Shown piece after piece: positions 14,651 through 34,950 of a stretch of 37,363 nucleotides of DNA (the first letter of the stretch is position 1; the number at the start of each line of letters is the position of its first letter). Source of the DNA: Acidimicrobiia bacterium (GTDB lineage: Bacteria > Actinomycetota > Acidimicrobiia > Acidimicrobiales > AC-14); contig JAHFUQ010000018.1 of NCBI GenBank assembly GCA_023265045.1, forward strand, positions 9,945 to 47,307, read 5' to 3'. The notes beneath the pieces are model-generated. The model was not told where the DNA came from, ran no database searches, and saw nothing but the letters and a program-made list of their open reading frames with translations. Position numbers and translations under genes: made by a program.

Positions 14651-15769
14651 CTAGCCGCCGTACAACGTGAGGTGCCGGCGGGCGGACGCCTCCCAGGTGT
14701 AGCGCGCCGCAACCGCGCGGCCGTTCTCCGCGAGCCGCCGCCGGAGGGCGCCGTCCACCATCATCGACCGCATGGCGGCGGCCAGCGCGGCGGGATCGGC
14801 GGGCGGCACGAGCAGGGCGTCGTGGCAGTGCGTGAGGTATTCGCGGAACACGGGGATGTCGGTGGCGATCACCGGCAGACCCGAGCTCATCGCTTCGAGC
14901 ACGGCCAGCCCCCAGCCCTCCTTGAGGGACGGGAAGACGAGGGCGTCCGCGGCGCCGTACCAGGCGGGGAGCTCGTCGTCAGGCACCGTCCCCAGGAGGA
15001 CGACGTCGCGACCCAGTTCCAGTCCCGATGGCGGCAGGCTGGCGAGCGCGGCCTCGCGGTAGGCGCGGTAATCCTGGAACGAGTGACCGCCGACGACGGC
15101 CAACGCTGCGGGTTGGACGGCCGCCAACGCCGCCAGCAAGTGGACGCTGCCCTTGCGCGGCTCGATCCCGCCCACTGCGAGGAAAAGGAACCGGCCGTCG
15201 CCGTTGTCGATCCCCACCCGGCCCCGCAGCGCGCCCCGCCGCTCCGGCGTGGCGCCGCGGAACCGGCGCCCGTCCACCCCGTTGGGAACGACGTCGGCCT
15301 CCACCCCGTACTCGTCCCGCAGCAGGCGTTGCCAGTGGCGGCTGACCACCAGCACCCGGTCGGGTTCGAGGATGGCCTGGCGCTGGCAGTCGACGAGCGC
15401 CGGGGTGGTGAAGTCGTCCACATGGTGGACGGTGCGCAGCACCGGAAGCCGCCCCACCCGCACCGCGGCCCGGGCGGCGATGCAGTCCTGGGTGTGGAAC
15501 AGGTCGAACCGGTCTGCGAGCCCGCTCAGCCCGGCCGCCAAGGCGTCCACCGATCGGAACACCCGCTCCTCGAGTGTCGCCGCCTCGGGCGGCGCGGCGA
15601 CGATCACGCACGGCGCGTCCACGGCCCGGAAAAACCCGGCCGCCGGGTCGCCCAGGGCCACCACGGTGATGTCGGCGCCCAGCGCGCAGAGGGCCTCGGC
15701 CAGCGAGAGGGTGTGCACGACCCCGCCGCGCGGCTTGGTCGAGTAGGTGACGAGGGCGACGCGCGTCAC
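14651..15769 (-). CDS. GT4 glycosyltransferase, MSMEG_0565 (Nit1C-associated) family
   Basis: 372 residues, GTG start overlapping the FdrA stop (GTGA). N terminus VALVTYSTKPRGGVVHTLSL, middle FHTQDCIAARAA and TVHHVDDFTTPALVDCQRQA, and the GT4 nucleotide-sugar site EGWGLAVLEAMSSGLPVIAT. The CQRQA and HHVDDF stretches match my recollection of the MSMEG_0565 family that accompanies the Nit1C nitrilase cluster. It is last in a leftward unit carbamate kinase-FdrA-glycosyltransferase, with both junctions overlapping. Acceptor is unknown; a sugar may decorate the small-molecule product of the cluster. Confidence 0.85.
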   Translation of the reverse strand: MTRVALVTYSTKPRGGVVHTLSLAEALCALGADITVVALGDPAAGFFRAVDAPCVIVAAPPEAATLEERVFRSVDALAAGLSGLADRFDLFHTQDCIAARAAVRVGRLPVLRTVHHVDDFTTPALVDCQRQAILEPDRVLVVSRHWQRLLRDEYGVEADVVPNGVDGRRFRGATPERRGALRGRVGIDNGDGRFLFLAVGGIEPRKGSVHLLAALAAVQPAALAVVGGHSFQDYRAYREAALASLPPSGLELGRDVVLLGTVPDDELPAWYGAADALVFPSLKEGWGLAVLEAMSSGLPVIATDIPVFREYLTHCHDALLVPPADPAALAAAMRSMMVDGALRRRLAENGRAVAARYTWEASARRHLTLYGG

Positions 15770-17247
15770 GCCAGTTCGGGCTTGCGCAGGGCGATTGCCG
15801 CGGCCGCCCGCGACGCCTGCGCCGCGGTCGCGGTCACGACGCACCCGGCCGCGGCCAACCTTGCCCGCTGCCCTGCGTACCCCTGGGGGTCCTGGTCGGT
15901 GCCCAACACGTAGGCGACCACCTGCGGGCCGGCGCCGCCTGCATGCACGTCCGCGCACGCGGGCGCCAGCGCCCCGGCGGGGTCGGGGTGAGAGCCGTGG
16001 CCGAGCACCACGTCGATGAGCACGACCGCGACGTCGGCCTCCCGCCCCGCGGCCAGGATGAACTCGATGCGGGCTTCGGGGTCGATCATGGGATGGGGCC
16101 GGCCTTTGGTGTACTCCTCCTCGCCGAGGTCGAGGCAGACGTGGCTGCCGGCCGGCGCCGGCACGTGCAGGGCCTTGTCGAGCGGCGTGTTCGACCACAC
16201 CGGACCGAGCAGGTCGGACAGGATCACCAGCGACTCGTAGCACAGCGTCCCGCCCGAGAAGAGGCCCCGCACCAGGGTGCGGGCCGGGTCGACGTTCACG
16301 TCCACGGCAAGCGAGAGGTCGGGCGCCGGCAGGCCCAGGACGCCGAGCGTGGCCACCACGCCGTCCTCCAGGGTGCGCACCACGGTGACGCCCTCGGGCA
16401 GCCGCAACTCGCCCTTGAGCCCGACCAGCGACGCCACCATCGGCGTGTCCCCCGCGAGCGCCACCACCTCCTGCGCCACCCGCTCGGAGGGCGGCTTGGA
16501 CACGAGGAGGATCACGTCAGTGGCGGGGTCGTCGCGCATGGCGGCCACCGCCAGTTTGGCCATCCGGCCGCCGACCGCCTCGGTGAGGTCGCGCCCGCCG
16601 AGGCCGATCACGTGCGACACCCCCACGCCCCACCGGTCGAGCAGCGTCATCGCCTCCTGGGCGCCGGTGCCGGCCGCCGCGATCACCCCTACCCGGCCGG
16701 GCTTGACCGCGTTGGCGAACCCCAGCCCCACCCCGCCCAGCATGGCCGTCCCCGCACCCGGCCCCATGACCAACCGGCCCACCTCGGCGGCCCGGTCCTT
16801 CAGCGCCACCTCGTCCTCGACCGACACGTTGTCGCTGAACAGCAGGACGTCCAGGCCCGCGGACAGCGCCTTGTGCGCCTCCAGCGCGGCGTAATCGCCG
16901 GGGACGGAGATCACGGCGACGTTGGCGCCGGACACCTCCTGCAGCGTCCGCACCGACTGCTCGGCAGTTTCCGCCTTCGTGGCCGTGGCGGCGAACAGCC
17001 GCGCCTCGCCCGAGGCCAGCGCGGCGACGACGACGGCCTCGTCCCCGGCGGTCACGGCGATGAACAGGTCGTTGGCTGTCGCCGGCGGGGCATCGAAGCC
17101 GCGCTCGACCAGGGTGTCGACGTTCGCCGGCGTGGCCATGGCCGCCGCCGCCCACTCCACGCCGCTGACGTCGAGCATCGCCCGCGTCCCGGCCATCTGC
17201 AGCACCGAGTCGAGGTATGTCCCCCTGAAGACACGCACGCCGTTCAT
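15766..17247 (-). CDS. FdrA-family protein (AllF-like, oxamate carbamoyltransferase component)
   Basis: 493 residues from ATG 17247, overlapping the carbamate kinase stop (ATGA). N terminus VRVFRGTYLDSVLQMAGTRA, then a succinyl-CoA-synthetase-alpha-like half: GPGAGTAMLGGVGLGFANAV, VGVIAAAGTGAQEAMTLLDR, HVIGLGGRDL, and ILLVSKPPS. FdrA/AllF in E. coli works with DUF1116 (AllG) and DUF2877 (AllH) as oxamate carbamoyltransferase in anaerobic allantoin degradation, with AllK carbamate kinase using the carbamoyl phosphate. All four classes are in this window, but split between this leftward unit and the rightward unit at 27-29 kb. Substrate here may differ; no allantoin genes are visible. Confidence 0.85.
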   Translation of the reverse strand: MNGVRVFRGTYLDSVLQMAGTRAMLDVSGVEWAAAAMATPANVDTLVERGFDAPPATANDLFIAVTAGDEAVVVAALASGEARLFAATATKAETAEQSVRTLQEVSGANVAVISVPGDYAALEAHKALSAGLDVLLFSDNVSVEDEVALKDRAAEVGRLVMGPGAGTAMLGGVGLGFANAVKPGRVGVIAAAGTGAQEAMTLLDRWGVGVSHVIGLGGRDLTEAVGGRMAKLAVAAMRDDPATDVILLVSKPPSERVAQEVVALAGDTPMVASLVGLKGELRLPEGVTVVRTLEDGVVATLGVLGLPAPDLSLAVDVNVDPARTLVRGLFSGGTLCYESLVILSDLLGPVWSNTPLDKALHVPAPAGSHVCLDLGEEEYTKGRPHPMIDPEARIEFILAAGREADVAVVLIDVVLGHGSHPDPAGALAPACADVHAGGAGPQVVAYVLGTDQDPQGYAGQRARLAAAGCVVTATAAQASRAAAAIALRKPELA

Positions 17248-18224
17248 TGCTCCGCCACCAACGGCTTCATGCGCACGATGCGGGTGCCGGTGACGCCCTC
17301 GATGTCGGACACCGTGCCCTGCAGCGAGGCGTACACCAACTGGGGGGTGGTGATGACGGCCTCCTCGCCGCCCCGGCGCAGGAACCGGATGGCGGCCCTG
17401 ACCTTCGGCCCCATGCTGCCCTCGGGGAACTCGCCCTCGTCGAGCCACTGTTGCGCCTCGTCCACGGCCATCTCATGGATGGCCCGCTGGTCGGGCTGGC
17501 CGTAGTGGAGCAGGACGGTCTCGACCCCGGTGACCAGGACCAGCGCCTGCGCCGCCAGCGAGGTCGCCAGGCGCTGCGCCGCGTAGTCCTTGTCGATCAC
17601 CGCGTCGATGCCGCCGTATCCCGACTTGTACCGCACCACCGGCACGCCGCCGCCCCCTGCCGCCACCACCACCTGGCCCTGGTCCAGCAAAGCCCGGATG
17701 GCGTCGGTCTCCAGGATCGCCACCGGGTCGGGCGACGGCACGACGCGCCGCCACCCGCGGTCGGAGTCACGCTTGACGGTCCAGCCCCGCTCCGCGGCCA
17801 TCGACTCCGCCTGCTCCTCGGTCAGGAAGGGCCCGATGAACTTGGTCGGGTCGCCGAAGGCGGGATCGTCGGGGTTGACGGCGACGTGGGTCACCACCGA
17901 CACGACGCCCCGCATCGCCCCCGCGTCGTTCACCCGGCGCAGGGCCAGGCAGATCAGGCTCCCGAGCTGGCCCTCGGTCATCGCACCGAGGGAGAAGAGG
18001 GGCTGGGCGGGGACGAGCTTTGCCCCCTCCTCGTGCTGGATGGCGAGGTTGCCGACCTGCGGCCCGTTGCCGTGGACGAGCACCACCCGCCAACCCGTGC
18101 GCATGAGGGACGAGACGGTCTTCGCCATGATCGTGGCGTTGGCCTCGAGTTCCTCGTAACTTCCGGCCTGGCCTTCGCGGGTCAGCGCGTTGCCGCCCAG
18201 AGCGACGACGGCGGTCTTCGCCAT
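17244..18224 (-). CDS. Carbamate kinase
   Basis: 326 residues from ATG 18224, preceded by AAGGAGG. Amino-acid kinase motifs: VVALGGNALTREGQ, VVLVHGNGPQVGNLAIQ, VVAAGGGGVPVV, GIDAVIDKDYAAQRLA, LVLVTGVETV and MGPKVRAAIRFL. The enzyme interconverts carbamoyl phosphate plus ADP with ATP plus carbamate. It resembles ArcC/AllK. Beside FdrA it would either harvest ATP from carbamoyl phosphate or supply carbamoyl phosphate to the FdrA complex. First gene of the leftward unit; it faces the intergenic motif at 18272. Confidence 0.93.
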   Translation of the reverse strand: MAKTAVVALGGNALTREGQAGSYEELEANATIMAKTVSSLMRTGWRVVLVHGNGPQVGNLAIQHEEGAKLVPAQPLFSLGAMTEGQLGSLICLALRRVNDAGAMRGVVSVVTHVAVNPDDPAFGDPTKFIGPFLTEEQAESMAAERGWTVKRDSDRGWRRVVPSPDPVAILETDAIRALLDQGQVVVAAGGGGVPVVRYKSGYGGIDAVIDKDYAAQRLATSLAAQALVLVTGVETVLLHYGQPDQRAIHEMAVDEAQQWLDEGEFPEGSMGPKVRAAIRFLRRGGEEAVITTPQLVYASLQGTVSDIEGVTGTRIVRMKPLVAEQ

Positions 18225-18271
18225 CCCGGCCTCCTTCACGCCAAAGAACCACGCACGATGCGACACGTATT

Positions 18272-18285
18272 TCTACCATAGTGTA
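18272..18285 (+). promoter_or_regulatory. Shared AT-rich motif, site A
   Basis: TCTACCATAGTGTA in the 73-bp divergent gap between the carbamate kinase gene and the small gene at 18298. It matches site C by the nitrile hydratase operon at 11 of 14 positions and site B at 10 of 14. It may be an operator; TACCAT or CATAGT could also act as a -10, but no fitting -35 is visible. Confidence 0.5.
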
Positions 18286-18297
18286 GACTGCACGGCA

Positions 18298-18639
18298 ATG
18301 AGCGGGCTCAGCCATCCGTTCCGTGATCCGGACGTCCCGCCGGAGACGTTGTTCCGGTGGTTCCAGGCCGAGGAGCGCCTCTACCCTGTGGCGATGGTGA
18401 TGCCGGAACGCTACGAAGCGGTGGTGCGCCTCGTCGGCCGGGTCAGCGAGCAGTTGCGGGCGACCTGTTTGGATCTGGCCACGCTCGTCCAGGTCGACAC
18501 CGACGGCGAAGTCGCGGAGATGGCGAAGCGCCTGGTCATGGCCGACCCGGCGATGGCCACCGACCTCGATCTCGCCCTGGTGGCCGGCGCGGCGTGCTCC
18601 ATCCGGTACCGGGAACTGGCGGCCGCGCGTGGCCATTGA
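18298..18639 (+). CDS. Unrecognised 113-aa protein, first gene of the radical-SAM unit
   Basis: Starts MSGLSHPFRDPDVPPETLFR and continues with predicted helices (RYEAVVRLVGRVSEQLRATC, TDGEVAEMAKRLVMADPAMA). One Cys pair, no membrane segment, no known motif. It overlaps the radical SAM gene by 11 bp, so it is probably translated with it. It does not resemble the small MSMEG_0570 protein that I remember from Nit1C loci. A structural or carrier role is possible but unsupported. Confidence 0.75.
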   Translation: MSGLSHPFRDPDVPPETLFRWFQAEERLYPVAMVMPERYEAVVRLVGRVSEQLRATCLDLATLVQVDTDGEVAEMAKRLVMADPAMATDLDLALVAGAACSIRYRELAAARGH

Positions 18640-19741
18640 CTCGCCGTCGCTCGCGTCGCTCATCACCGAACTGCAGAGCTCGGGCCTCCGGGTCGAGGCG
18701 CCCATGGAGTCCCGCCACGGCGGCGCCGGGCCCAGCGACTCCGGCATGCTCTGGATCGAAGGCGTCGCCGTCACCGTCCCGACCGACGCCGAGTTCGCCC
18801 GCACCTCGCCCTACGTGCTGCGACCCGAGGACGACGGGTTCGGCATCTACCTCGACGGGGTCCGGCTCGCGGCCGCCGCCGGCACGCCCCGACCCAGGTA
18901 CTACGACCTGACGACGGCCGACGGCATCCCCTACTGGAAGATCGCCCTCCTGCACCTGGACTCGCTGGCGTCGACCGTCCTGCAGACGTGCGCCTACTGG
19001 GGCAACTCCGACCAGTGCCAGTTCTGCGGGATCGGGCTGTCCCTCGACGCCCACCGCACGATCGCCAAGAAGCGCCCCGACCAGTTGGCCGAGGTGGCGC
19101 TGGCGGCCAAGGAGCTTGACGGCGCGGTCGACGCCACCCTCACGACCGGCAGCACGGCCGGCGCCGACAAGGGCGCCCTCTACGTGGCCCAGTGCGGGGC
19201 GGCCGTCAAGCAAGCGGCCGGGCTGCCGGTCGAAGTCCAGTTCGAGCCGCCCCACGACCTCGACGTCATCGACCAGGTTCACGGCTTCGGCGTCGATTCA
19301 GTGGGCATCCACGTCGAGTCGTTCGACCCGGTGGTGCTCGCCCGCATCGCGCCGGCCAAGGCCCGCACCGGCATCGACGGCTACTTCGCGGCGTGGGAGC
19401 GGGCGGTCGCGTTGTTCGGCGAGGGCCAGGTGTCGACGTATGTGATCCTCGGCATGGGCGAGGATCCGGCGCTCACCGTGGACGGGTGCCGGCGGGCCAT
19501 CGACATGGGCGTCTACCCCTTCGTCGTCCCGCTGCGCCCGATCGCCGGCAGCCTGCTGGGGCACCTCCGCCCGCCCAGCGCGGCCTACGCCGAAGGCATC
19601 TACCGCCAGGTCGTGCCGTACCTGACCGCTCGGGGCCTCGGGTCGAAGGGCGTCGCGGCCGGTTGCGCGCGCTGCCAAGCGTGCTCGGCCATGGGCGCGA
19701 TGGAGGGGCTGTCGCTGGGGGCGACCCGCACGAAGGCATGA
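18629..19741 (+). CDS. Radical SAM protein, MSMEG_0568 (Nit1C-associated) family
   Basis: 370 residues, GTG start. The cluster-binding motif is CAYWGNSDQCQFC, i.e. Cys121, Cys130 and Cys133 in a C-x8-C-x2-C spacing instead of C-x3-C-x2-C; that spacing is typical of the MSMEG_0568 family. Later come TLTTGSTAGADKGA, QFEPPHDLDVIDQ, GIHVESFDPVVLARIAP and a C-terminal Cys pair in CARCQACSAM that could bind a second cluster or metal. Nit1C radical SAM enzymes have no established reaction; they occur beside nitrilases linked to cyanide assimilation. Here no nitrilase is near. Confidence 0.88.
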   Translation: MAIDSPSLASLITELQSSGLRVEAPMESRHGGAGPSDSGMLWIEGVAVTVPTDAEFARTSPYVLRPEDDGFGIYLDGVRLAAAAGTPRPRYYDLTTADGIPYWKIALLHLDSLASTVLQTCAYWGNSDQCQFCGIGLSLDAHRTIAKKRPDQLAEVALAAKELDGAVDATLTTGSTAGADKGALYVAQCGAAVKQAAGLPVEVQFEPPHDLDVIDQVHGFGVDSVGIHVESFDPVVLARIAPAKARTGIDGYFAAWERAVALFGEGQVSTYVILGMGEDPALTVDGCRRAIDMGVYPFVVPLRPIAGSLLGHLRPPSAAYAEGIYRQVVPYLTARGLGSKGVAAGCARCQACSAMGAMEGLSLGATRTKA

Positions 19742-19748
19742 TCCCGGC

Positions 19749-20204
19749 ATGATCCGGGCGACGTGCCGGATCGCGGTGACGCCGGACGATCTCGCCGCCC
19801 ACCACCGCATCCGCCACCAGGTCTTCGTCGACGAGCAGGCGTTGTTCGCGGGCGCCGATGTGGACGCCCACGACCCCGACGCCGTCCACATCATCGGGTT
19901 GTGGGACGGTGAGGTGGTCGGCGCGGTCCGCGCCTTCGTGCTCGACCAAGCGGCCGGCCTGTGGCAGGGCGACCGCCTGGCGGTGCTGCCCGAGCACCGC
20001 ATCCGCAACGTCGGCAAGCCCCTGGTGAAGTTCGCCGTCGCCACCGCCGCCGAGCGGGGCGGCCGCCTCATGGTCGCCCACATCCAGCTGCCCAACGTGG
20101 CCTTCTTCGAGCGCATCGGCTGGTACACCCACGGCGACGTCGAGACCTACGTCGGCGTCGCCCACCAACCCATGGCGATCGATCTCGTTTCCTCGGATCC
20201 ATGA
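19749..20204 (+). CDS. GNAT-fold acetyltransferase, MSMEG_0567 N-terminal-like
   Basis: 151 residues. RIRHQVFVDEQALF is the typical GNAT entry, then DPDAVHIIGLWDGEVVGAVR, a V(L/A)PEHR-like LAVLPEHRIRNVGKPLVKFA for the acyl-CoA pyrophosphate loop, and NVAFFERIGWY near the end. In mycobacteria this domain is fused to an AIR-synthase-like domain (MSMEG_0567), while in Synechocystis they are separate, as here. It begins 7 bp after the radical SAM stop and overlaps the next gene by ATGA. Confidence 0.85.
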   Translation: MIRATCRIAVTPDDLAAHHRIRHQVFVDEQALFAGADVDAHDPDAVHIIGLWDGEVVGAVRAFVLDQAAGLWQGDRLAVLPEHRIRNVGKPLVKFAVATAAERGGRLMVAHIQLPNVAFFERIGWYTHGDVETYVGVAHQPMAIDLVSSDP

Positions 20205-20782
20205 CACGCCCGTTCCGGGGAGTTGAGGAAGCCTTGGCCGAGGCGGACGGCGCCGTGGCCGCGCTGCGTCCCGGAATCTGGCTCGGGCCGGTCCTGCCCG
20301 AGCTGGGACGACAAGGTCTTTTCGGCGCTCACCCGGTCGTATCCGAGATCAAGTTGCACTATCTCGACCGGTGCGGCCCGGATGCCCGGCCGACAATCGG
20401 CGTGCTTGTCAGCAACCGTTTGAAGCCGACGACCTGGGTGGACCCGAAAGGTCGGGTTGCCGGTCTGGAAAACCCGCTGGCGGCGCACATCGAGAACTTT
20501 GTCGCCCGCTTCACCGGCTACCCCCCGAAGCCCCCGCTCGAACGGGCCCACTTCGCACCGCTGGGCCAGGGGTGGGACGCGCCGGCTGGTTCCACCGCCT
20601 CCCGTCACTCGACGTTCCCGCTGGAAGTGGTCGAGATACCCGTCGCGCCGGATGCGCCGATGGGTGTCGAAGTCTGTGTCGCCACGTGGAACCTGCCCGT
20701 CGGCGAGTACGTCGCCGCGCTGGAGCCGCTTCAGCCGGCGACGGCCCGCGCTATCGACGCTCGGCGTTCGTCAGGCCCGTAA
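20201..20782 (+). CDS. Unrecognised 193-aa protein in the Nit1C-like unit
   Basis: ATG 20201 overlaps the GNAT stop (ATGA). Recognisable stretches are SEIKLHYLDRCGPDARPTIG, VLVSNRLKPTTWVDPKG and FPLEVVEIPVAPDAPMGVEV, giving a mixed alpha/beta soluble protein without signal peptide or membrane segment. No known family comes to mind. Its position behind radical SAM and GNAT genes makes it a candidate new member of this pathway. The last 32 bp overlap the convergent AIR-synthase-like gene. Confidence 0.7.
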   Translation: MTRPFRGVEEALAEADGAVAALRPGIWLGPVLPELGRQGLFGAHPVVSEIKLHYLDRCGPDARPTIGVLVSNRLKPTTWVDPKGRVAGLENPLAAHIENFVARFTGYPPKPPLERAHFAPLGQGWDAPAGSTASRHSTFPLEVVEIPVAPDAPMGVEVCVATWNLPVGEYVAALEPLQPATARAIDARRSSGP

Positions 20783-21710
20783 CCGGCGTCGTCGCCAGGT
20801 CGAGGACGACGGCCTTTTCGGCGCCGGACTGGAGCGCCACCACGCCCGAGTCGTCCAGCGTCCCGATCACCGCCGCCTCGATCCCCCGCTCGTGGAACGC
20901 ACCCGCGCACTCGTCCTCACGCCCGGGCGGGACGCACAGCAGGAACCCGAAGCAGGGGAAGCAGATGAGCCACGTGGCCATGTCCACCCCCGCGGGCGTC
21001 GGCACGGCGTCGAGGTCGATGGTGACGCCCAACCGCCGCGACTCCACGAGCATGGCGGCCGACCCCACGAGGCCGGCCATGCTCACGTCCTTGGCCGCCG
21101 CGCAAAGGCCGCGTTCGGCCACCTCGGCGAGCAGGCGGACGTCGCCCGCGAGCCGGCCCCCCCGCTCGTCGAACGACGGGAAGAAGGGGAAGTCCTCGCG
21201 CATCCGACCCTCGGTGACGCACGCCAGCACCAGGCGTTGGCCGGCCGCGGCGCGGGCGACCGACAGCACCGGCCCGCCCGCCCGCCCCAGCCCGAAGGCC
21301 GAGACCGCCGGGGGGCCGTCGTGCACGGTCAGGTGCCCGCCGACGACGGGCACGCCGTACAGCCCGCTGGCGTAGCGCATCCCTTCCAGGGCGGCACGGG
21401 CGACCACTTCCGAGCCGACGACCGTGTCGACGATGGCCAGCGGGCGCGCCCCCATGGCGGCCAGGTCGTTGACGTTGGTGAGGACCGCGGCCACCCCGGC
21501 GCCGAACGGGTCCCGGGCCACGAAGGCAGGGGCGATGGCCTCGCCGGCGACGACGAGCGACCCGTCGCGGTCCGCCACCACGGCGCCGTCGTCCCCTGGC
21601 CCCCCCACCCAATCGGTCGGCCCGAAGACCTCCGACACCAGCCCGATGGCGGCCTTGGCGCGCAGCCCGGCGTGACCGCGTACGGCTGCCGCGAGGTCCT
21701 CGAGGCTCAC
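20751..21710 (-). CDS. AIR-synthase-like protein, Sll0787 (Nit1C-associated) family
   Basis: 319 residues, GTG 21710 with GGAGG just upstream. The PurM-superfamily ATP-binding motif is GPGDDGAVVADRDGSLV; further signatures are VLTNVNDLAAMGARPLAIVD, GVPVVGGHLTVHDGPP and AAKDVSMAGLVGSAAML. PurM/SelD/HypE relatives use ATP to activate oxygens or make phosphorylated intermediates; the Sll0787 family reaction is not established. It is alone on the minus strand, divergent from the ComA-like gene and facing motif site B. Confidence 0.88.
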   Translation of the reverse strand: MSLEDLAAAVRGHAGLRAKAAIGLVSEVFGPTDWVGGPGDDGAVVADRDGSLVVAGEAIAPAFVARDPFGAGVAAVLTNVNDLAAMGARPLAIVDTVVGSEVVARAALEGMRYASGLYGVPVVGGHLTVHDGPPAVSAFGLGRAGGPVLSVARAAAGQRLVLACVTEGRMREDFPFFPSFDERGGRLAGDVRLLAEVAERGLCAAAKDVSMAGLVGSAAMLVESRRLGVTIDLDAVPTPAGVDMATWLICFPCFGFLLCVPPGREDECAGAFHERGIEAAVIGTLDDSGVVALQSGAEKAVVLDLATTPVTGLTNAERR

Positions 21711-21719
21711 GTCCCTCCT

Positions 21720-21733
21720 TGCACTAAAGTAAA
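21720..21733 (-). promoter_or_regulatory. Shared AT-rich motif, site B
   Basis: On the minus strand TTTACTTTAGTGCA, ending 10 bp before the GTG of the AIR-synthase-like gene and abutting its GGAGG. It agrees with site C at 11 of 14 and with site A at 10 of 14. Overlap with the ribosome-binding region argues for an operator rather than a -10 box. Confidence 0.5.
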
Positions 21734-21739
21734 CGTTTC

Positions 21740-21753
21740 TCTACCATAGGCGG
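21740..21753 (+). promoter_or_regulatory. Shared AT-rich motif, half-conserved site D
   Basis: TCTACCATAGGCGG: its first ten bases are identical to site A. It is 2 bp upstream of the GTG at 21756. If TACCAT is a -10, the ComA-like gene would be nearly leaderless. Confidence 0.4.
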
Positions 21754-21755
21754 AA

Positions 21756-22526: not shown

Positions 22527-23407
22527 ACACGGTTCCGGGCCAGTACCGCCGGGTGTCGGTGGCGACCGTCGACGTGCCGCTCACCGCCGACGCGCTCACC
22601 GCCCACTTCACGGGCCGCGAGGTCTACCGCCATACCCGCTACGTCGTCGTGCGCGACCGCGCCGGCGACGCCACTGCCGTCGTGGAGGTCGCCAAGCCGG
22701 TGACTGACGCCCTGTTCAGCCCCGTCGCTGAGATGAGGGTGCTCGCCCTCCCGGATGAGTGCGAGTACGTCAAGCGTCCCGACATCGACACCGGCGTGCC
22801 GAGCGCATTGGTCGCCGCGGCCGGCGGCTCACGCTGCGTCGTGGTCGAGGGCCGCTACGACCACGTGAACTTCATCCTCGATCCCGCCCCGATCCGCATA
22901 AGTGTCGCGGACGTCGTTCCGCCCCAGCCCGCCAAGCTCGTCGACCAGGCCGCCCGTGTGCTGTCGGTGGCCGAGGACCTGCCGCCCGTGGAGCTGCAAC
23001 CGGTCATCGTCGACATGGCCGACCTGGCGCGTGAGCGCCCGCCCGCCCCGCACTACCTCCTGCCGTGCCGGGCCTCGGGGTTCCAATTGGACGGCGCCGC
23101 CGTTTCGTTCCTCGACGAGCGCCCGCCGAAGGGGGACTGGACCCTGATCGGATGCGCCCGCTCGCGCGCCATCCACGAGCATTTCTACGGCGGCCCGCCG
23201 GACGACGCGATCGAGACGTGCCCCCGCAAGCTGTTCCCGCCCGACGGCGCCGGGCCGCTGCTGACCAAGTGCTGCCTGCTCGAGAACGCCAACCAGCCCG
23301 ACGGCCTCTCGACCATGGTGGTCCCGTGGGGCGCGTCGCTCGCCCTCGTCAAGCAGGCGCTGGCCGACCTCGCGACCGCTGCGGATCCGGCATGGGCGCC
23401 CGCCTAA
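22523..23407 (+). CDS. Unrecognised Cys-containing protein between ComA-like and lyase genes
   Basis: 294 residues, ATG 22523 overlapping the ComA-like stop (ATGA). Sections: YRRVSVATVDVPLTADALTA, HFTGREVYRHTRYVVVRD, FQLDGAAVSFLDERPPKGDW and CARSRAIHEHFYGGPP. Cysteines near residues 181, 211, 233, 250 and 251 (ETCPRK, TKCCLLENA) could bind metal or take part in thiol chemistry. No signal peptide or known fold motif. It has no counterpart that I know in the Xanthobacter coenzyme M locus. Its position suggests a dedicated step of this pathway. Confidence 0.8.
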   Translation: MNTVPGQYRRVSVATVDVPLTADALTAHFTGREVYRHTRYVVVRDRAGDATAVVEVAKPVTDALFSPVAEMRVLALPDECEYVKRPDIDTGVPSALVAAAGGSRCVVVEGRYDHVNFILDPAPIRISVADVVPPQPAKLVDQAARVLSVAEDLPPVELQPVIVDMADLARERPPAPHYLLPCRASGFQLDGAAVSFLDERPPKGDWTLIGCARSRAIHEHFYGGPPDDAIETCPRKLFPPDGAGPLLTKCCLLENANQPDGLSTMVVPWGASLALVKQALADLATAADPAWAPA

Positions 23408-24738
23408 CCGACTCCCAGCTCTATGCCCACCTGTGGGGCACGGCCGAGTTGCGCGCCGTGTTCGACGAGCGCGCCCGGCTCCAGTCATGGCTCGACATCC
23501 TCGCCGCCCTCGCCCGGGCCCAGGCCAAGCTGGGCGTCATCCCGGCTGAGTCGGCCGACCAGATCACCTCCGCCGCCACTGTCGACACCCTCGACTTGGA
23601 CTACGTGGCCGAGGAGACCAGGCGGACGTCGCACTCGACGCTCGGGCTGATCCGCGGCCTGCAACGCACCTTGCCCTCGCCCGCCCGCGACCACGTCTAC
23701 TACGGGGCGACGGTGCAGGACGTCACCGACACGTGGACGGCGCTCGCGATGGGCGCGGTCGGCGCCGTGGTGTGGCGCGACCTGCGCACCATCGAGGGAC
23801 TGCTGCTCGACCTGGCCGAGGCCCACCGCGCGACCCTGATGGCAGGGCGCACGCACGGCCAGATCGGCGCGCCGATCACGTTCGGCTTCAAGGCGGCGTC
23901 GTGGGCCGACGAGGTGCGCCGCCACGTCGACCGCTTGCGCGAGGGGCGACCGCGCTGGCTGGTCGGCCAGTTGGGTGGCGCGGTGGGCGTGCTCGGGTTC
24001 TTCGGCGCCGACGGTCCGGCGCTGCGAGCCGCGTTCTGCAGCGAGCTCGGCCTCGACGACCCGGGGATCTCATGGCTGAGCTCCCGTGACCGGCTGGCGG
24101 AGTTCGCCACGACACTGGCCTTGGTCACCTGCACGCTGGCCCGCATCGGCGGCGAGGTCTACGAGCTGCAACGGCCCGAGATCGCCGAGCTGCGCGAGCC
24201 CACCACGGCGGACGCGGTCGGCAGCATCACCATGCCCCACAAGCGCAACCCGGAGCGGGCCGAGCACCTCGACACCCTCGCCCGGCTGGTGCGGGCGAAC
24301 GCCGCCGTCCTCCTGGAGGGCGTCGTCTCGTCCCATGAGCGCGACGGCCGGGCGTGGAAGGCCGAGTGGGTGGCGCTGCCCGAGGTGTGCCTGCTCACGG
24401 GCGCGGCGCTGGAGACCGCCATCGCGTTGCTCTCCGGCCTCGGGGTGGACGCCGAGGCGATGGCCGCCAAGGTCGGTGACCAAGCGCGCTCGGAGCAGGT
24501 GCTGGCCGCCCTCAGCGCGCAGCTCGGCCGCCACCGGGCACAGGAGTTGTTGCACGAGGCGCTGAGCCCAGGAGCGGCCTTGCCGCCCGCCATCGACGAG
24601 GTCATCGCCCGCCTGGGCGTCACGTCCCCGTCGCCTCCCGCGCCCGCGCCCCCGATCGAGGGCGCGGTGGCGATGGTCGACGGGGTCGTCGCCCGCGCCC
24701 GCGCCGCCCGCGCCCAGGAGCCAAACGAGTGGACGTGA
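23392..24738 (+). CDS. Aspartase/fumarase-superfamily lyase (adenylosuccinate-lyase-like)
   Basis: 448 residues from ATG 23392, overlapping the previous gene by 16 bp. Signature GSITMPHKRNPERAE at residues 277 on; upstream SRDRLAEFATTLALV and TRRTSHSTLGLIRGL with YYGATVQDVTDTWTA are also typical of PurB/3-carboxymuconate cycloisomerase relatives. In most relatives the signature is GSSxMPxKxNP; here the second Ser is Ile279. In Xanthobacter, XcbC1 of this superfamily removes phosphate from phosphosulfolactate to give sulfoacrylate, so this protein is a candidate for that or the decarboxylation step. True adenylosuccinate lyase is unlikely given context. Confidence 0.88.
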   Translation: MGARLTDSQLYAHLWGTAELRAVFDERARLQSWLDILAALARAQAKLGVIPAESADQITSAATVDTLDLDYVAEETRRTSHSTLGLIRGLQRTLPSPARDHVYYGATVQDVTDTWTALAMGAVGAVVWRDLRTIEGLLLDLAEAHRATLMAGRTHGQIGAPITFGFKAASWADEVRRHVDRLREGRPRWLVGQLGGAVGVLGFFGADGPALRAAFCSELGLDDPGISWLSSRDRLAEFATTLALVTCTLARIGGEVYELQRPEIAELREPTTADAVGSITMPHKRNPERAEHLDTLARLVRANAAVLLEGVVSSHERDGRAWKAEWVALPEVCLLTGAALETAIALLSGLGVDAEAMAAKVGDQARSEQVLAALSAQLGRHRAQELLHEALSPGAALPPAIDEVIARLGVTSPSPPAPAPPIEGAVAMVDGVVARARAARAQEPNEWT

Positions 24739-25610
24739 ACCTGCCCCGCTTCCCGCTGGCTGTCCTGCCCACCCCCCTGGTGCGGGGGCGGCACTGGCCG
24801 GTCTGGTTCAAGCGCGACGACCTGGCCGGCTTCGCGGCGGCCGGTCACAAGGCCCGCCAGTTGGAGTTTCTCGTGGGCGACGCCCTCGCCCAAGGGTGCG
24901 ACGTGGTGGTGACGGGCGGCGGCCCTGGCTCCAACTTCGTCCCCGCCGCCGCGGTCGCCGCCGCGGTCGCCGGCCTCGACTGCGAGGTGCTGATCTACGG
25001 GCCGGCGCGCCGCCACCCCAACGTGGACGCGGCGGTGGCTGCCGGCGCCCACGTCCAGTTCACCGGCGACCCGGACCGCACCCGCCACGACGACGCCATC
25101 GCCGACTTCAGCGCCAAGTTGGCGGCTGGGGGCCGCCACCCGTACGCCATCCCGCGCGGCGGCGCGACCCCTGTCGGCGCGGCCGGCATGGCCGTCGCCG
25201 CGGCCGAACTGGGCGACATCGAGCCGGGCACGATCGTGGTCGCCACCGGCTCGGGCGGGGCCTGCGCCGGCCTCGCCGCCGGCGCCCCCCCAGGCTGGCG
25301 GGTCCTCGGAGCCTCGGTCAGCCGTCCTGTCGACGAGGCGGCCGCCCAGGTCAACCGGCTGGCGGCCGAGTGCGCCACCCTGCTCGCCCTGCCCGCGCCC
25401 CCCGCCGTCGAGCTGGTCGACGTCCGCGGCCCCGGCTTCGGCCTCCCGTCCGAGGAAGGCGAGGAGGCGGCGCGGATCGCGCTGCAGACCGAGGGCCTGC
25501 GGCTCGACCCCGTGTACACGGCCAAGGCGTTCGCCCTCCTCCTCCACCTGGTCGACGAAGGCACACCCGAGCCGATCGTCTTCTGGCACACCTACGGCGG
25601 CCGGCCGTGA
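24729..25610 (+). CDS. PLP-dependent enzyme of D-cysteine desulfhydrase/ACC deaminase family
   Basis: 293 residues, GTG start overlapping the lyase stop. VWFKRDDLAGFAAAGHKARQ places the Schiff-base Lys at residue 41 (family GNKxRKLE; here GHKARQLE). Also GGGPGSNFVPAAAVAA, PRGGATPVGAAGMAVAAAEL and the phosphate loop VVATGSGGACAGLAAG. The family includes D-cysteine desulfhydrase, ACC deaminase and the L-cysteate sulfo-lyase CuyA. Next to a ComA-like and two fumarase-type enzymes it matches XcbE1, the thiolation enzyme of the bacterial coenzyme M route. CuyA-like release of sulfite from cysteate is an alternative. Confidence 0.88.
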   Translation: MDVNLPRFPLAVLPTPLVRGRHWPVWFKRDDLAGFAAAGHKARQLEFLVGDALAQGCDVVVTGGGPGSNFVPAAAVAAAVAGLDCEVLIYGPARRHPNVDAAVAAGAHVQFTGDPDRTRHDDAIADFSAKLAAGGRHPYAIPRGGATPVGAAGMAVAAAELGDIEPGTIVVATGSGGACAGLAAGAPPGWRVLGASVSRPVDEAAAQVNRLAAECATLLALPAPPAVELVDVRGPGFGLPSEEGEEAARIALQTEGLRLDPVYTAKAFALLLHLVDEGTPEPIVFWHTYGGRP

Positions 25611-27073
25611 GGACCTTTGGCCCGGCCACGTCCGGCCCCGCGCCCGAATTGGTCGAGTCCGGCTTCGCCCTCGAAAACGCCGACGCGCCCCTGCTCCACC
25701 GCGGCCTCAACCTGGCCGACATCGCCCACGTCATCGACCTGCGCGGCCAGAAGGTCATCCCTCCCGACGCCGCCCGCGCCTTGCTCGACCTTCTCCTCGA
25801 AGTGGAGCAGACGCCGGCCGAGGAGTTCCCCTACGACCCCTCCTTCGGCGAGGCCTACAACTCGCGGGAGCGGTACTTCGCGTCCCGGATCGGAGACACC
25901 GCCGGCTGGCTGCACGCCGGCCGCCCGCGCCGGGAGGCCACCCGGATCGCCCTGCGCCTCCTGCTGCGCCGCCAGCTGGTCGACCTGGTGGCCGACGCGG
26001 CGCAGCTCGCCGGCCACATGACCGACCAGGCCGCGGCCCACGTCAACAGCCTCATGCCCGACCAGACCTACCTCCAGCAGGCCCAGCCGTCGACCTTCGG
26101 GCACTACATCCTGTCCTTCGCCTACCCGACGCTGCGCGACGGCCGGCGCCTGCTCGACGCCTTCGACTGGGTGAACACCAGCCCCGGCGGCGCCGGGTGC
26201 GTGAACGGCAGCCGGCTGCTGGCCGACCGCGGCCTGATGGCCGAGCTGCTCGGGTTCGACGGGATCATCGAGCACACCCGCGACGCCATGTGGCAGGTCG
26301 ACGGCCTGATCAACCTCATGGGCACCACCGCCAGCATGCTGTCGAACCAGTCCAAGCTGGCCGAGGACTTGGAGATCTGGTCGAGCAGCGAGTTCGACTA
26401 CGTGGACCTCGACGCCGGTTTCACCCGGGCCAGCGTGCTGATGCCGAACAAGCGCAACCCGTACTCGCTGTCGATCGTACGGGGCGCCCACGGCATCCTC
26501 ATCGGCCGGCTGTCGGGGTTCCTGGCCGTGGTCAAGAGCCCGTCGGCCCGCAGCGACAACCTCATCTTCGCCTACGGCGAGGTGCCTCGCTCCCTCGACC
26601 TGGCGTCGCGGGTCACCCGCCTGATGAGCGGCGTGGTGCGGACCCTGCACGTCAACACCGAGCGCATGAGCGCCGCCCTGCAGGCCGGCTTCACTCAGGC
26701 CACCGACCTGGCCGAGCACATCGTGACCCGCTGCGGGGTGGACTACCGCACCGCCTACCTGGTGGTGGGCCAGGCTGTGCGCGCCGCGAGCGCCGCCGGC
26801 CTGCGAGGGATCGACATCACCGCCGCCATGCTCGACGAGGCCGCGCAGCAACCGCTCGGGCTCACCGACGAGGAGTTGGCGGCCGTACTCGATCCGGCGC
26901 AGATCGTCGCCACCCGGTCGGCTCGGGGCGGGGCCGCACCGGCGGCCGTCGCGCCCATGATCGAGGCGTGCCGCACGGCGGCGGGCGAGCTGGCGGCCGA
27001 GGCCGACCGCCGCCGGGCCGCGTATGACAAGGCCGAAGCGTCCCTCCTGTCCCTGGCTGAGGAGAAGGAATGA
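25607..27073 (+). CDS. Aspartase/fumarase-superfamily lyase (argininosuccinate-lyase-like)
   Basis: 488 residues, GTG start with GTGA overlap. Typical argininosuccinate-lyase layout: SFGEAYNSRERYF near the N terminus, MPDQTYLQQAQPSTFGHYIL (family GYTHLQ.AQP), then SSSEFDYVDL and the signature ASVLMPNKRNPYSL at residue 275 on. Family consensus there is GSSLMPQKRNP; here Gly is Ala275 and the usual catalytic Ser is Val277. That argues against argininosuccinate cleavage and for altered chemistry, such as the XcbD1-type decarboxylation step proposed for bacterial coenzyme M synthesis. It overlaps DUF1116 downstream by ATGA, joining this set to the carbamoyltransferase set. Confidence 0.87.
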   Translation: MRTFGPATSGPAPELVESGFALENADAPLLHRGLNLADIAHVIDLRGQKVIPPDAARALLDLLLEVEQTPAEEFPYDPSFGEAYNSRERYFASRIGDTAGWLHAGRPRREATRIALRLLLRRQLVDLVADAAQLAGHMTDQAAAHVNSLMPDQTYLQQAQPSTFGHYILSFAYPTLRDGRRLLDAFDWVNTSPGGAGCVNGSRLLADRGLMAELLGFDGIIEHTRDAMWQVDGLINLMGTTASMLSNQSKLAEDLEIWSSSEFDYVDLDAGFTRASVLMPNKRNPYSLSIVRGAHGILIGRLSGFLAVVKSPSARSDNLIFAYGEVPRSLDLASRVTRLMSGVVRTLHVNTERMSAALQAGFTQATDLAEHIVTRCGVDYRTAYLVVGQAVRAASAAGLRGIDITAAMLDEAAQQPLGLTDEELAAVLDPAQIVATRSARGGAAPAAVAPMIEACRTAAGELAAEADRRRAAYDKAEASLLSLAEEKE

Positions 27074-28470
27074 CCACACCCGTGTTGCCCACCGAGGTGT
27101 CCGTCGTGAACGTCGGCTTGCCATTGTTCGCCGACGCCATCCGTGACCAGGGGCGTCCCGTGACGCAGGTCGACTGGCGCATCCCCGCCGGCGGCGACCT
27201 CCAGCTGGTGGCCGCCCTGGCGCGCCTGTACGGGCCGCGCGCCGCAGCCATCGACGAAGCCAACGCCGAAGTCGCTCGCCGCCTCGACCAGGGCGCACCC
27301 AAGCTCGTGGGGATCGAACCCGCCCTCGGCGCGCTGCCTGGAGTCGACGACCGCACCGTCATCCACTCCGGCCCCGCGATCGACTGGGCCGACATGTGCG
27401 ACCCCCTGCGGCGCTCGGTTCGCGCCGCGGCGATGGCCGAGGGGTGGGCGCGCACGCCTGCGGCGGTCGACGACCTGATCGCTCGCGATCGGGTTCACCT
27501 CGAACCGGCCAACCTTCACGCCGCCGTGGTGCCCATGGCCAGCGCCATCGGCCCGTCGGCGCCCATGTTCGTGGTCGAGGACGGGGCCAGCGGCGTGCGG
27601 GCTTTTTCGTCCATGAACCAGGGCCCGGGCGAGACGGCGTGGTTCGGCCGGGAGACGCCCGCCGCCGTCGAGCGCCTGGTCTTCCTGCGTGACGTCGCCG
27701 CCCCCCTTCTGGCGCAGTGCCTCGAGGCCGCCGGTCCGCTCGACGTCTTCACCCTCGCCGCCCAAGGGTTGGCCATGGGCGACGACCTCCACATGCGCAC
27801 GCAGGCCACCACCAACCTCCTGCTGCGCACCCTCCTGCCCCATCTGATGGCTCTCGACGATCCCCGCCGGGCCGATCTCGGCCGCTTCCTCTCGGCCAAC
27901 CACCTCTTCTTCCTCAACATCGCCATGGCCGGGGCCAAGGCCCTCACCCTCTGGGCCGAGCAGGTGCAGGGGTCGAGCATCGTCACGACCATGGCCCGCA
28001 ACGGCACGACCTACGGGGTGCGCCTGGCGGGTGACGACCGGTGGTTCGTCACTGCCTCGCCGCCCATCGGCCAGGCCCTCTACTACCCCGGTCAGGGCCC
28101 GGAGTCGAGCGCGCCCGACATCGGCGACAGCGCCGTGCTGGAGCTGATGGGGCTCGGTGGGGCGGCCGCCGCCGCGTCGCCGGCCGTCGCCGCGTTCGTG
28201 GGCGGCTCGATGCGCGACGCCGTCGCCGCCACCGAGAGCATGGAGCGCATCTGCGCGGCCCGCAGCACCCGGTTCAAGCTCCCCATCCTCGACTTCCGGG
28301 GCTCGCCCCTCGCCGTCGACGTTCGCAAGGTCGTCGAGCTCGGCATCACGCCCAAGGTGAACACCGGGATCCTCCACGCCTTCGACGGCTCCGGCCAGGT
28401 CGGGGCCGGGGTGGCCGAGGCGCCGATTGCCTGCTTCCGTGCCGCCCTTCTCGATCTCGATTGCCGGTAA
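27070..28470 (+). CDS. DUF1116 protein (AllG/YlbE-like)
   Basis: 466 residues. Typical stretches: VNVGLPLFADAIRDQGRPVT, VDWRIPAGGD, LEPANLHAAVVPMASAIGPS, MNQGPGETAWFGR, FTLAAQGLAMGDDLHMRTQA, and SANHLFFLNIAMAGAKA. E. coli AllG is one component of the oxamate carbamoyltransferase with AllF (FdrA) and AllH (DUF2877). Its partner FdrA is in the leftward unit at 15.8-17.2 kb. The gene is translationally coupled to the argininosuccinate-lyase-like gene, linking the carbamoyl and sulfonate-type genes in one transcript. Confidence 0.9.
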   Translation: MTTPVLPTEVSVVNVGLPLFADAIRDQGRPVTQVDWRIPAGGDLQLVAALARLYGPRAAAIDEANAEVARRLDQGAPKLVGIEPALGALPGVDDRTVIHSGPAIDWADMCDPLRRSVRAAAMAEGWARTPAAVDDLIARDRVHLEPANLHAAVVPMASAIGPSAPMFVVEDGASGVRAFSSMNQGPGETAWFGRETPAAVERLVFLRDVAAPLLAQCLEAAGPLDVFTLAAQGLAMGDDLHMRTQATTNLLLRTLLPHLMALDDPRRADLGRFLSANHLFFLNIAMAGAKALTLWAEQVQGSSIVTTMARNGTTYGVRLAGDDRWFVTASPPIGQALYYPGQGPESSAPDIGDSAVLELMGLGGAAAAASPAVAAFVGGSMRDAVAATESMERICAARSTRFKLPILDFRGSPLAVDVRKVVELGITPKVNTGILHAFDGSGQVGAGVAEAPIACFRAALLDLDCR

Positions 28471-29110
28471 GGGCGTCACCGACGCGCCCGGCCGGGTGGT
28501 CGCGGTCTACGCCAAGGCCGCCTACGTCAGCACCGCGGCCGGGCTGTTCGCCGTCACCACGCCGGACGTCCCGCCCGGCCCCGTCCACGCCGCAACCCAC
28601 GCCGACGTCAGCCGCCTTCGCGCCGGCGACCAGGTCGAGGTCGACCTCGCCGGCGCCCATCGCTGGGTAGGCGCCCTCCCCGCCCAGCTCGACGCCGAGC
28701 TTCTCCTCGCCGTGCTTGCCGCCGCGCCCCCTTCGTCACTCTCGCCCCTGCCCGACGGCGACATCGCCGCCCTCGCCGCCTACCTCGGCGGGCGCGGCCC
28801 GGGCCTCACGCCCGCGGGTGACGACTGCCTGGCGGGCATGTTCCTCGTCGCCTACGTCCGCGGCGACGACGTCACCGGCCTGGCCGAGGCCGTCCCCACC
28901 AACGACATCGCCCTCGCCTTCCTCCACTGGGCCGCCCAGGGCCAGAGCATCGAGCCCGTCCACCGGCTCCTCTGCGCCACCGATCACGGCGCCGGGCGCG
29001 AGGCCCTCGCCGACCTCCTCCGCTTCGGCCACAGCTCGGGCGCCGACCTCGCCCTCGGCCTGCGGACCGCCGTGCAACGGCTGTGCAACGGGGCGCGCCA
29101 CCCTTCGTGA
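28439..29110 (+). CDS. DUF2877 protein (AllH/YlbF-like)
   Basis: 223 residues from GTG 28439 (another in-frame start exists at 28427). The family signature is GGRGPGLTPAGDDCLAGMFL; upstream is a beta-rich N-terminal half (VVAVYAKAAYVSTAAGLFAV). AllH completes the oxamate carbamoyltransferase with AllF and AllG. It overlaps the DUF1116 gene by 32 bp. End of the convincing part of the rightward unit. Confidence 0.88.
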   Translation: MPPFSISIAGKGVTDAPGRVVAVYAKAAYVSTAAGLFAVTTPDVPPGPVHAATHADVSRLRAGDQVEVDLAGAHRWVGALPAQLDAELLLAVLAAAPPSSLSPLPDGDIAALAAYLGGRGPGLTPAGDDCLAGMFLVAYVRGDDVTGLAEAVPTNDIALAFLHWAAQGQSIEPVHRLLCATDHGAGREALADLLRFGHSSGADLALGLRTAVQRLCNGARHPS

Positions 29111-32696: not shown

Positions 32697-32716
32697 CGCG
32701 ACCTCCTTTCGGAACC

Positions 32717-32743: not shown

Positions 32744-32759
32744 CGTCAAGCTGCAGCTG

Positions 32760-34909: not shown

Positions 34910-34950
34910 CGCGCCTCCCGATCCGGGTATGGACGATCCGAGTCCGTCCG

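Follow-up and report, generated by a model that had tools for sequence, protein, structure and literature searches.

Closest described systems and the hybrid cluster

According to PMC1199592, Nit1C is a seven-gene cluster that includes the subfamily 1 nitrilase NitC, and as of 2005 experiments had established a role for none of the genes; PMC11049912 describes it as a cyanide-assimilation cluster of Pseudomonas, in which NitC releases ammonia. The carbamoyltransferase AllFGH, encoded with a carbamate kinase, converts oxalurate to carbamoyl phosphate and oxamate; its assay was run in reverse, starting from oxamate and carbamoyl phosphate (PMC11326118). Here we describe a locus in which genes of both kinds stand with genes for the synthesis of a coenzyme M (CoM)-type thiol, on a 37,363-nt stretch of an Acidimicrobiia bacterium (contig JAHFUQ010000018.1, positions 9,945 to 47,307; this whole stretch is called the window, and coordinates refer to it). 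CoM is a small sulfur cofactor that in bacteria is known mainly from alkene eaters. Our survey of genomes strongly supports that the three sets form one conserved, jointly kept cluster of about twenty genes, found in many species of soil bacteria.

As in Nit1C (nitBCDEFGH), homologues of NitB, NitD, NitE and NitF and a glycosyltransferase are kept together here, but CoM, carbamoyl, nitrile hydratase and CoA-disulfide-reductase (CoADR) genes are added, and no NitC nitrilase was found in the window or in the sampled hybrid loci, by which we mean loci of the CoM gene xcbA with Nit1C and/or carbamoyl genes; a version on a Methylocystis plasmid does have a nitrilase. A single query for the NitH-type flavin oxidoreductase, presumably the protein named MSMEG_0569, matched classic loci only and neither the window nor the hybrid loci; the CoADR-like flavoenzyme of the hybrid is of another type than NitH. 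As in Xanthobacter autotrophicus Py2, all five XcbA-E enzyme types are found in one operon, and most near-invariant columns of ComA, XcbC and XcbD are kept, whereas XcbE diverges. In Py2 the CoM genes have those for 2-hydroxypropyl-CoM lyase and a monooxygenase as neighbours, and the hybrid is the reverse: in the 24 kb of Py2 read as a control, the CoM set came with the transferase and monooxygenase genes, and genes of the Nit1C or carbamoyl type were not seen. The FdrA, AllG, AllH and carbamate kinase families of Escherichia coli AllFGHK are all present, yet the hybrid AllG groups apart from that of E. coli, the genes are split over two units and joined to CoM genes, and no allantoin genes were recognised near the window's cluster. 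The nitrile hydratase resembles known cobalt-type enzymes in the CTLCSC motif of its alpha subunit and in the N- and C-terminal domains of its beta subunit, and differs in being linked to NitB and CoADR.

Because nitrilase and NitH, the alkene transferase and an E. coli-type AllG are all missing, we regard the cluster as a variant on a Nit1C backbone. Its parts are of known kinds and their joining is new, as far as searched: we found no description of CoM, Nit1C and carbamoyl genes in combination, judged from titles and abstract starts with subscription papers mostly outside the search, which agrees with a preliminary description, made from the window's sequence alone, that had called the pathway undescribed.

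Conservation across genomes

XcbA, the rarest marker, was used to scan 84,980 species at one genome per species. Among the 80 relatives nearest to the window's XcbA (of 148 found), 42 loci are hybrids and 38 have neither Nit1C nor carbamoyl genes, a split that is not a natural frequency. The epoxyalkane:CoM transferase (EaCoMT) of alkene metabolism is present in 21 of the 38 and in none of the 42 hybrids, which also contain no nitrilase (0/42). Some loci are the same DNA (L062 with L015/G195, L031 with L153, L057 with L151) and others are near copies by tree distance (L035/L037, L029/L042, L053/L055); 34 loci of the 80 do not reach 17 kb. Among the 28 hybrids of at least 17 kb, all have carbamoyl genes, 27 have Nit1C genes and none has an alkene-type CoM transferase, so that related genomes do keep the sets together, the point on which the preliminary description had asked for a check. 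These 28 also hold OsmC (26, at least 40% identity), CoADR (23, at least 50% identity), a small protein called hyp33 (23), a helix-turn-helix (HTH)-cupin regulator (18), nitrile hydratase (13) and an amidohydrolase (9). Each of these cluster-type genes is missing from all 18 non-hybrid loci of at least 17 kb, 14 of which carry the transferase.

Gene order is conserved as well, with gaps measured from BLAST-estimated starts and counts made only over loci showing both genes. XcbC lies directly 5' of AllG in 27 of 37 loci and about 400 bases away in six more; the pairs XcbE-XcbC (37/37), carbamate kinase-FdrA (20/20), FdrA-glycosyltransferase (20/20) and CoADR-hyp33 (30/31) are neighbours, and MSMEG_0572 adjoins nitrile hydratase beta in 13 of 15 loci. 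Of 396 genomes of the phylum, 22 have the MSMEG_0568 radical SAM protein at a score over the cut-off, 10 have XcbA and nine have both (Fisher p 8e-12); AllG, present in 49, occurs in eight of the ten XcbA genomes (p 1e-6), these p values being optimistic because related genomes are not independent. Within the window's class, 13 of 296 genomes have XcbA, and only the window's own genome (G000) and G195 have hybrids; eight of the remaining 11 have the transferase within the stretch read. Named isolates bearing hybrids belong to Pseudonocardia (among them P. parietis), Actinomycetospora (among them A. cinnamomea), Nocardioides, Nonomuraea, Planosporangium and Methylocystis, while labels such as Bifidobacterium, Bacillota or Acidobacteria on metagenome-assembled genomes (MAGs) may reflect mis-binning.

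Since the sets recur in 42 of 80 loci with XcbC and AllG as neighbours in 27 of 37, they belong to one system, and we are nearly certain that the cluster is a conserved functional unit; a chance neighbourhood was rejected on the conserved content and gene order. The preliminary description had gone further and held that the sets probably act on one pathway. That they are one system is borne out by the conservation and by the XcbC-AllG adjacency, while their acting on a single pathway is still something that we infer.

A partial hybrid was seen in a deltaproteobacterial MAG (L099), where Nit1C genes and a carbamate kinase gene accompany fragments of FdrA and AllG, CoADR (59%) and amidohydrolase (59%), and XcbA lies near the contig end.

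Gene content and organisation of the window

The source genome is a draft of 4.3 Mb in 323 contigs, 85% complete, and the window lies on one contig. Families were assigned with NCBIfam and Pfam profiles, and several proteins score below narrow NCBIfam cut-offs. All gene families named in the preliminary description were found at their positions; its four units stood, but positions 14651-29110 hold 15 reading frames instead of the 14 genes counted there. Its end point at 29110 was too early, as the cluster runs to about 35.6 kb, and the gene list, right in itself, had overlooked the nitrile hydratase, NitB/MSMEG_0572, the disulfide reductase, the regulator and the absence of a nitrilase.

Unit 1, on the minus strand, reads carbamate kinase, FdrA, glycosyltransferase. 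The carbamate kinase (AllK/ArcC type; 17244-18224, ATG at 18224) exceeds the NF009007 cut-off (298.4 against 266 bits) and falls just below that of TIGR00746 (350.2 against 358.25). FdrA/AllF (15766-17247, ATG at 17247), a carbamoyltransferase subunit of the succinyl-CoA-synthetase-type fold, scores 384.4 bits with NF004760, under the cut-off of 433, and is further identified by a Ligase_CoA match and by PDB 3dmy (E 2.5e-68). The Nit1C-associated GT4 glycosyltransferase of the MSMEG_0565 family (14651-15769) reaches 374.6 bits with TIGR04047 (cut-off 259.85).

Unit 2, on the plus strand, begins with a small conserved protein, hyp18 (18298-18639), whose start is uncertain (an ATG read from the sequence) and which matches no Pfam family above cut-off; relatives 35-66% identical occupy the same position, 5' of the radical SAM gene, in some other loci. 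It is followed by the MSMEG_0568 family radical SAM protein (NitD; 18629-19741; TIGR04043, 383.1 bits, cut-off 303.7), the MSMEG_0567/Sll0786 GNAT acetyltransferase (NitE; 19749-20204; TIGR04045, 100.3 bits, cut-off 68.45) and hyp20 (20201-20782), a frame without a family match that may be specific to the lineage or may not be a gene at all. We regard it as the least secure of the genes, since no convincing relative was found in the loci searched, even in the nearest relative, L028. Unit 3 is a single minus-strand gene for an sll0787 family AIR-synthase-like protein of the PurM superfamily (NitF; 20751-21710; TIGR04049, 279.5 bits, below 321.3), with PurL, SelD and HypE relatives in the PDB.

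Unit 4, on the plus strand, reads ComA, XcbA, XcbD, XcbE, XcbC, AllG, AllH. ComA, or phosphosulfolactate synthase (XcbB type; 21756-22526), matches PF02679 (264.1 bits) and stays below the TIGR03849 cut-off (233.3 against 280). The XcbA family protein (DUF7714; 22523-23407) scores 330 bits with NF052538 (cut-off 150) and matches PF24830. Next come an XcbD-like lyase (23392-24738), kin of 3-sulfopropionylcysteine synthase and just under the NF052536 cut-off (574.1 against 600); an XcbE-like pyridoxal phosphate enzyme (24729-25610), below the NF052537 cut-off (229 against 450), yet with this as its best family; and an XcbC-like enzyme of the argininosuccinate-lyase fold (25607-27073; NF052535, 433 against 575). 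The carbamoyltransferase subunits AllG/DUF1116 (27070-28470; PF06545, 223.5 bits) and AllH/DUF2877 (28427-29110; PF11392, 65.2 bits), the latter of uncertain start, close the unit.

Nearly all junctions within units have start and stop codons overlapping, as the preliminary description had said. ATGA joins carbamate kinase to FdrA, GNAT to hyp20, ComA to XcbA and, at 27070-27073, XcbC to AllG, so that this last junction, singled out in that description, is real. GTGA joins FdrA to the glycosyltransferase and XcbE to XcbC, while longer overlaps join hyp18 to radical SAM, XcbA to XcbD and XcbD to XcbE. Radical SAM and GNAT are separated by a 7-base gap, and with the TTG at 28427 as its start AllH would overlap AllG.

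Elsewhere, the same loci also hold counterparts of the genes that lie at 30694-35586. On the minus strand the latter are an OsmC/Ohr-like protein (30694-31122; PF02566), nitrile hydratase alpha (31432-32034; PF02979, 295.6 bits) and beta (32031-32696; PF02211 and PF21006), the DsrE-like MSMEG_0572/Sll0783 nitrogen starvation protein (NitB; 32760-33248; TIGR04044, 206.2 bits, cut-off 109.85; DsrE), hyp33 (33249-33572), and the CoADR-like flavoenzyme (33569-34909), which has the single-Cys motif SPCGIPY, scores 240.8 bits with TIGR03385 (cut-off 578.8) and has CoADR and NADH oxidase relatives in the PDB. The small protein hyp33, adjoining CoADR, has 13 invariant columns across 21 rows and a helical model (predicted local distance difference test, pLDDT, 74); a fold search with this modest model gave no match at E 0.001. 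The PuuR-like HTH and cupin regulator (34996-35586, plus strand; HTH_3, Cupin_2; ATG read from the sequence) ends the cluster.

CoM enzymes

Homologues of ComA, XcbA, XcbC, XcbD and XcbE stand together, and only XcbA passes its NCBIfam cut-off. Columns near-invariant among the non-hybrid rows are kept in hybrids at 34 of 39 positions in ComA, 44 of 60 in XcbA, 89 of 100 in XcbD and 57 of 67 in XcbC, and at only 25 of 52 in XcbE. No match to Meth_synt_2, the CoM transferase family, was found in the window's own genome, which is 85% complete. Judging from these sequences, we consider it quite probable that CoM or a near relative is made.

XcbA has invariant cysteines at C182, C211, C233, C250 and C251 (24 rows). 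Its model is confident (pLDDT 93), but the one PDB match under E 0.001 had TM-scores between 0.11 and 0.13 and is not usable as a fold match. An XcbA family match was also seen in Methanosarcina acetivorans.

Variants and phylogeny

Neighbourhoods were inspected for 20 of the 22 phylum genomes with the radical SAM protein over cut-off (G525 was left out, and G000 is the window's own). Nitrilase-family genes are present in five (L140-L144), whose surroundings show neither CoM nor carbamoyl genes, and one (L145) is cut by the contig end. Three (L146-L148, which we call variant B) combine Nit1C and carbamoyl genes with an amidohydrolase and an aminotransferase; eight (L149-L156) represent whole or fragmentary hybrids, with XcbA in the same genome where the CoM genes lie off the stretch; and in three (L157-L159) only the radical SAM gene was seen. 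The aminotransferase-like gene of variant B is conserved and adjoins carbamate kinase in all three loci.

In a quick AllG tree, which left out lower-scoring AllG of the phylum sample without a locus, the 37 hybrid rows group together (SH-aLRT 100) next to variant B, and E. coli AllG sits apart from them with 30 other AllG of the phylum. A FastTree AllG tree rooted on E. coli, with 12 rows added (11 lower-scoring phylum rows and Methylocystis), gave a hybrid group in which 39 of 39 rows come from hybrid loci, at a support of 0.63; the newcomers are Methylocystis and G390. The latter is a further hybrid on a 10-kb contig, with glycosyltransferase, nitrile hydratase, AllH, AllG, carbamate kinase, FdrA, OsmC and XcbC; no XcbA was found in its genome. 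The wider group of hybrids, variant B and L217-L220 has a support of 1.0, and because of this wider group the link between Nit1C-type and carbamoyl genes may be older than the addition of the CoM genes, with which CoADR and hyp33 seem to have come. In L217-L220 only FdrA, AllG and the MSMEG_0565-type glycosyltransferase were seen together, so that this glycosyltransferase accompanies the carbamoyl genes also where the radical SAM gene is absent.

Two label changes are required for the hybrids in the XcbC tree, since seven rows of the other type, from the Actinomycetospora/Kineosporia group, nest among them. XcbC of L053, L054, L055 and L058 lies on a long branch, and four hybrid XcbC rows, probably these, are without several otherwise conserved residues; their function has perhaps changed.

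A hybrid version on a Methylocystis plasmid

The Methylocystis iwaonis plasmid pSS37A-Re-1 (NZ_AP027143.1; L209) carries a hybrid version with CoADR (62%), hyp33 (53%), MSMEG_0572 (65%), AllG (59%), FdrA (52%) and XcbC (60%), and with the glycosyltransferase, cupin regulator, AIR-like, GNAT, radical SAM and OsmC genes and the CoM set. Next to it lie genes for a cytochrome bd oxidase and a DUF2474 protein, an arrangement typical of cyanide-insensitive oxidases; the bd oxidase was not found in the other loci. Two EaCoMT pieces lie near this cluster (L209, 7665-8005) and may be traces of a former alkene-type CoM locus.

Nitrile hydratase, amidohydrolase and nitrilase

The window's nitrile hydratase is of the cobalt type, with the motif VCTLCSC, which we take to be metal-binding, in alpha and the beta subunit alongside. 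Cluster-linked copies share 70-79% (alpha) and 55-74% (beta) identity with it; copies in G322, G335 and G364 that are unlinked in the assembly reach 44-61% and 28-39%, apart from one 40-residue piece at 62%. The copies of G322 and G335 were rejected as members of the cluster set, being of another type.

Nitrile hydratase (15 loci) and a cluster-type amidohydrolase (11 loci, at least 59% identity to the query) were not seen together in any locus (p about 6e-4, with the 59% limit set after seeing the data and kinship and locus ends ignored). This exclusion suggests that both do the same step, and the cluster-type amidohydrolase might be a substitute for nitrile hydratase that has so far gone unrecognised. 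A single, weak Amidohydro_2 match was found in the window's own genome, on another contig. With two different queries, no nitrilase was matched in the window, nor among the hybrid loci that came from the XcbA scan and from the phylum sample, and the only CN_hydrolase found in the window's genome (85% complete) is on another contig.

Proposed role of the cluster and alternatives

We propose that synthesis of a CoM-type thiol serves nitrogen scavenging by way of carbamoyl transfer, a reading to which, stated without a cyanide-to-thiol step, we give a probability of about 0.5. It is favoured by the conservation of the cluster, the exclusion of the alkene enzyme, the co-occurrence in the 396 genomes, the conserved neighbours and the grouping of AllG, and further by the conservation of ComA, XcbC and XcbD, the lack of Meth_synt_2, the intact nitrile hydratase tied to NitB, the separate occurrence of nitrile hydratase and cluster-type amidohydrolase, the reported role of Nit1C in cyanide assimilation, the formation of carbamoyl phosphate by AllFGH and the bd oxidase genes beside the Methylocystis version. 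That nitrogen is scavenged from a C-N compound is in itself fairly probable.

The thiol would likely be made from phosphoenolpyruvate and sulfite (ComA, XcbC) and then cysteine (XcbD, XcbE, XcbA); this is the chemistry of CoM synthesis, of which the window displays the enzyme families. Cyanide or an organic nitrile group would be taken onto the thiol as CoM-S-CN, for example by attack of cyanide on CoM disulfide. Cysteine thiocyanate cyclises to a dead-end iminothiazolidine, which CoM-S-CN could not do because CoM has no amino group. Nitrile hydratase, elsewhere perhaps the amidohydrolase-family protein, would hydrate CoM-S-CN to the S-carbamoyl thiol CoM-S-CONH2, and FdrA, AllG and AllH would phosphorolyse this to CoM-SH and carbamoyl phosphate. 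By PDB comparison FdrA is related to succinyl-CoA synthetase, a partial reaction of which converts a thioester and phosphate to an acyl phosphate and a thiol. Carbamate kinase would then yield ATP, NH3 and CO2, the CoADR-like enzyme could hold CoM in the right thiol/disulfide state, and the radical SAM, GNAT, AIR-like, glycosyltransferase and NitB proteins might have the same roles as in ordinary Nit1C clusters. This exact thiocyanate/thiocarbamate route is doubtful. It also seems unlikely that the cluster represents a third use of CoM in the full sense of CoM-dependent assimilation of cyanide or nitrile nitrogen in Actinomycetota and some Pseudomonadota, through a new AllFGH branch and with recovery of ATP. 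If the proposal is right, bacteria would use CoM or a close relative in a different way, for scavenging nitrogen in the absence of the alkene enzyme, and the cluster would offer a handle on what the Nit1C genes do and on which substrates the recently identified AllFGH transferase accepts.

Several observations weigh against the proposal. Several enzymes score below curated NCBIfam cut-offs. XcbE diverges, and it was missed in three long loci, L031, L104 and L040, of which L040 stops at a contig end, so that the final thiol may not be CoM itself. Variant B shows no CoM genes in its neighbourhood, and its genomes gave no XcbA match. Nitrile hydratase was seen in 13 of the 28 long hybrids; it was not found in five of ten hybrid genomes, and G322 and G335 have only the other type. 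Neither nitrile hydratase nor amidohydrolase was seen in eight of the 28 long hybrids. A distant amidohydrolase (46-47%) stands beside nitrile hydratase in L030 and L041, so that without the identity limit two of the 42 hybrid loci hold both, and we know of no hydratase activity for the cluster's amidohydrolase. Plasmid pSS37A-Re-1 keeps the Nit6803 nitrilase; in the 44 kb read, AllH, nitrile hydratase and cluster-type amidohydrolase were not matched, nor was a carbamate-kinase-family gene found on the plasmid, the replicon searched. A simple swap of nitrilase for nitrile hydratase is weakened by this nitrilase and by the roughly half of long hybrids without nitrile hydratase.

An amide could also be formed without a thiol adduct, by nitrile hydratase or by other steps (for example oxamate from cyanoformate), with AllFGH shifting the carbamoyl group between amide and phosphate as for oxalurate and CoM acting elsewhere or as a redox buffer, in which case OsmC and the disulfide reductase would fit a role in thiol redox. 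The assay of AllFGH on oxamate and carbamoyl phosphate (PMC11326118) is consistent with this, as are the carbamoyl and Nit1C genes of variant B without CoM genes and the FdrA, AllG and glycosyltransferase genes of L217-L220. The placing of AllG directly 3' of XcbC and the restriction of the hybrid AllG group to hybrid loci, at its support of 0.63, argue the other way, and we hold this alternative possible but on balance unlikely.

The same genes might run in the biosynthetic direction, carbamate kinase and AllFGH loading a carbamoyl group on the thiol and the AIR-like protein dehydrating it to a thiocyanate, as HypF and HypE make the cyano group of hydrogenase by carbamoyl loading and dehydration; the cyano group would be destined for a cofactor or natural product decorated by the glycosyltransferase and GNAT enzymes. 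The AIR-like protein does share the PurM superfamily with HypE, but the match between them is weak (24-25 bits), below several other PurM kin. GT4 and GNAT enzymes also build mycothiol-type thiols (an MshA match was seen, and MshD has a role in that synthesis), while the cluster's nitrile hydratase or nitrilase would undo the product and carbamate kinases are mostly catabolic, which makes this direction quite improbable. Alkene- or epoxide-type CoM metabolism, with the Nit1C and carbamoyl genes as unrelated neighbours, could account for the nested rows of the XcbC tree and the EaCoMT remnant on the Methylocystis plasmid; as a main role it is largely refuted by the distribution of EaCoMT (0/42 hybrids against 21/38 others) and by the lack of an EaCoMT-family match in the window's own genome, and we rejected it as very improbable.

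Promoter element and adjoining genes

A TACYATASTGTA-like element is common to three divergent promoters (18266-18300, 21711-21755 and 34910-34995). It is exact at 18274-18285 (plus strand, carbamate kinase/hyp18) and 34953-34964 (plus strand, CoADR/HTH), and has two mismatches at 21720-21731 (minus strand, AIR/ComA), a site found after the pattern was drawn up. Because the pattern was derived from the sites at 18274 and 34953, its rarity is no fair test. The element, not clearly conserved in most other loci, is possibly a common operator or promoter and may be merely a -10-type promoter element; a consensus scan for promoters and terminators found nothing.

An LnmK-family bifunctional acyltransferase/decarboxylase gene (35575-36531, minus strand) adjoins the cluster; a Pnap_2097 relative of it (27% identity) lies inside the Methylocystis version (L209:21994-22920), and it was not found in the remaining loci searched. 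Two genes that by their sequence resemble LarB and LarC adjoin the hybrid cluster of L043 (5365-7237), and relatives are present in the Pseudonocardia/Actinomycetospora-type loci L030, L033, L041, L044 and L052.

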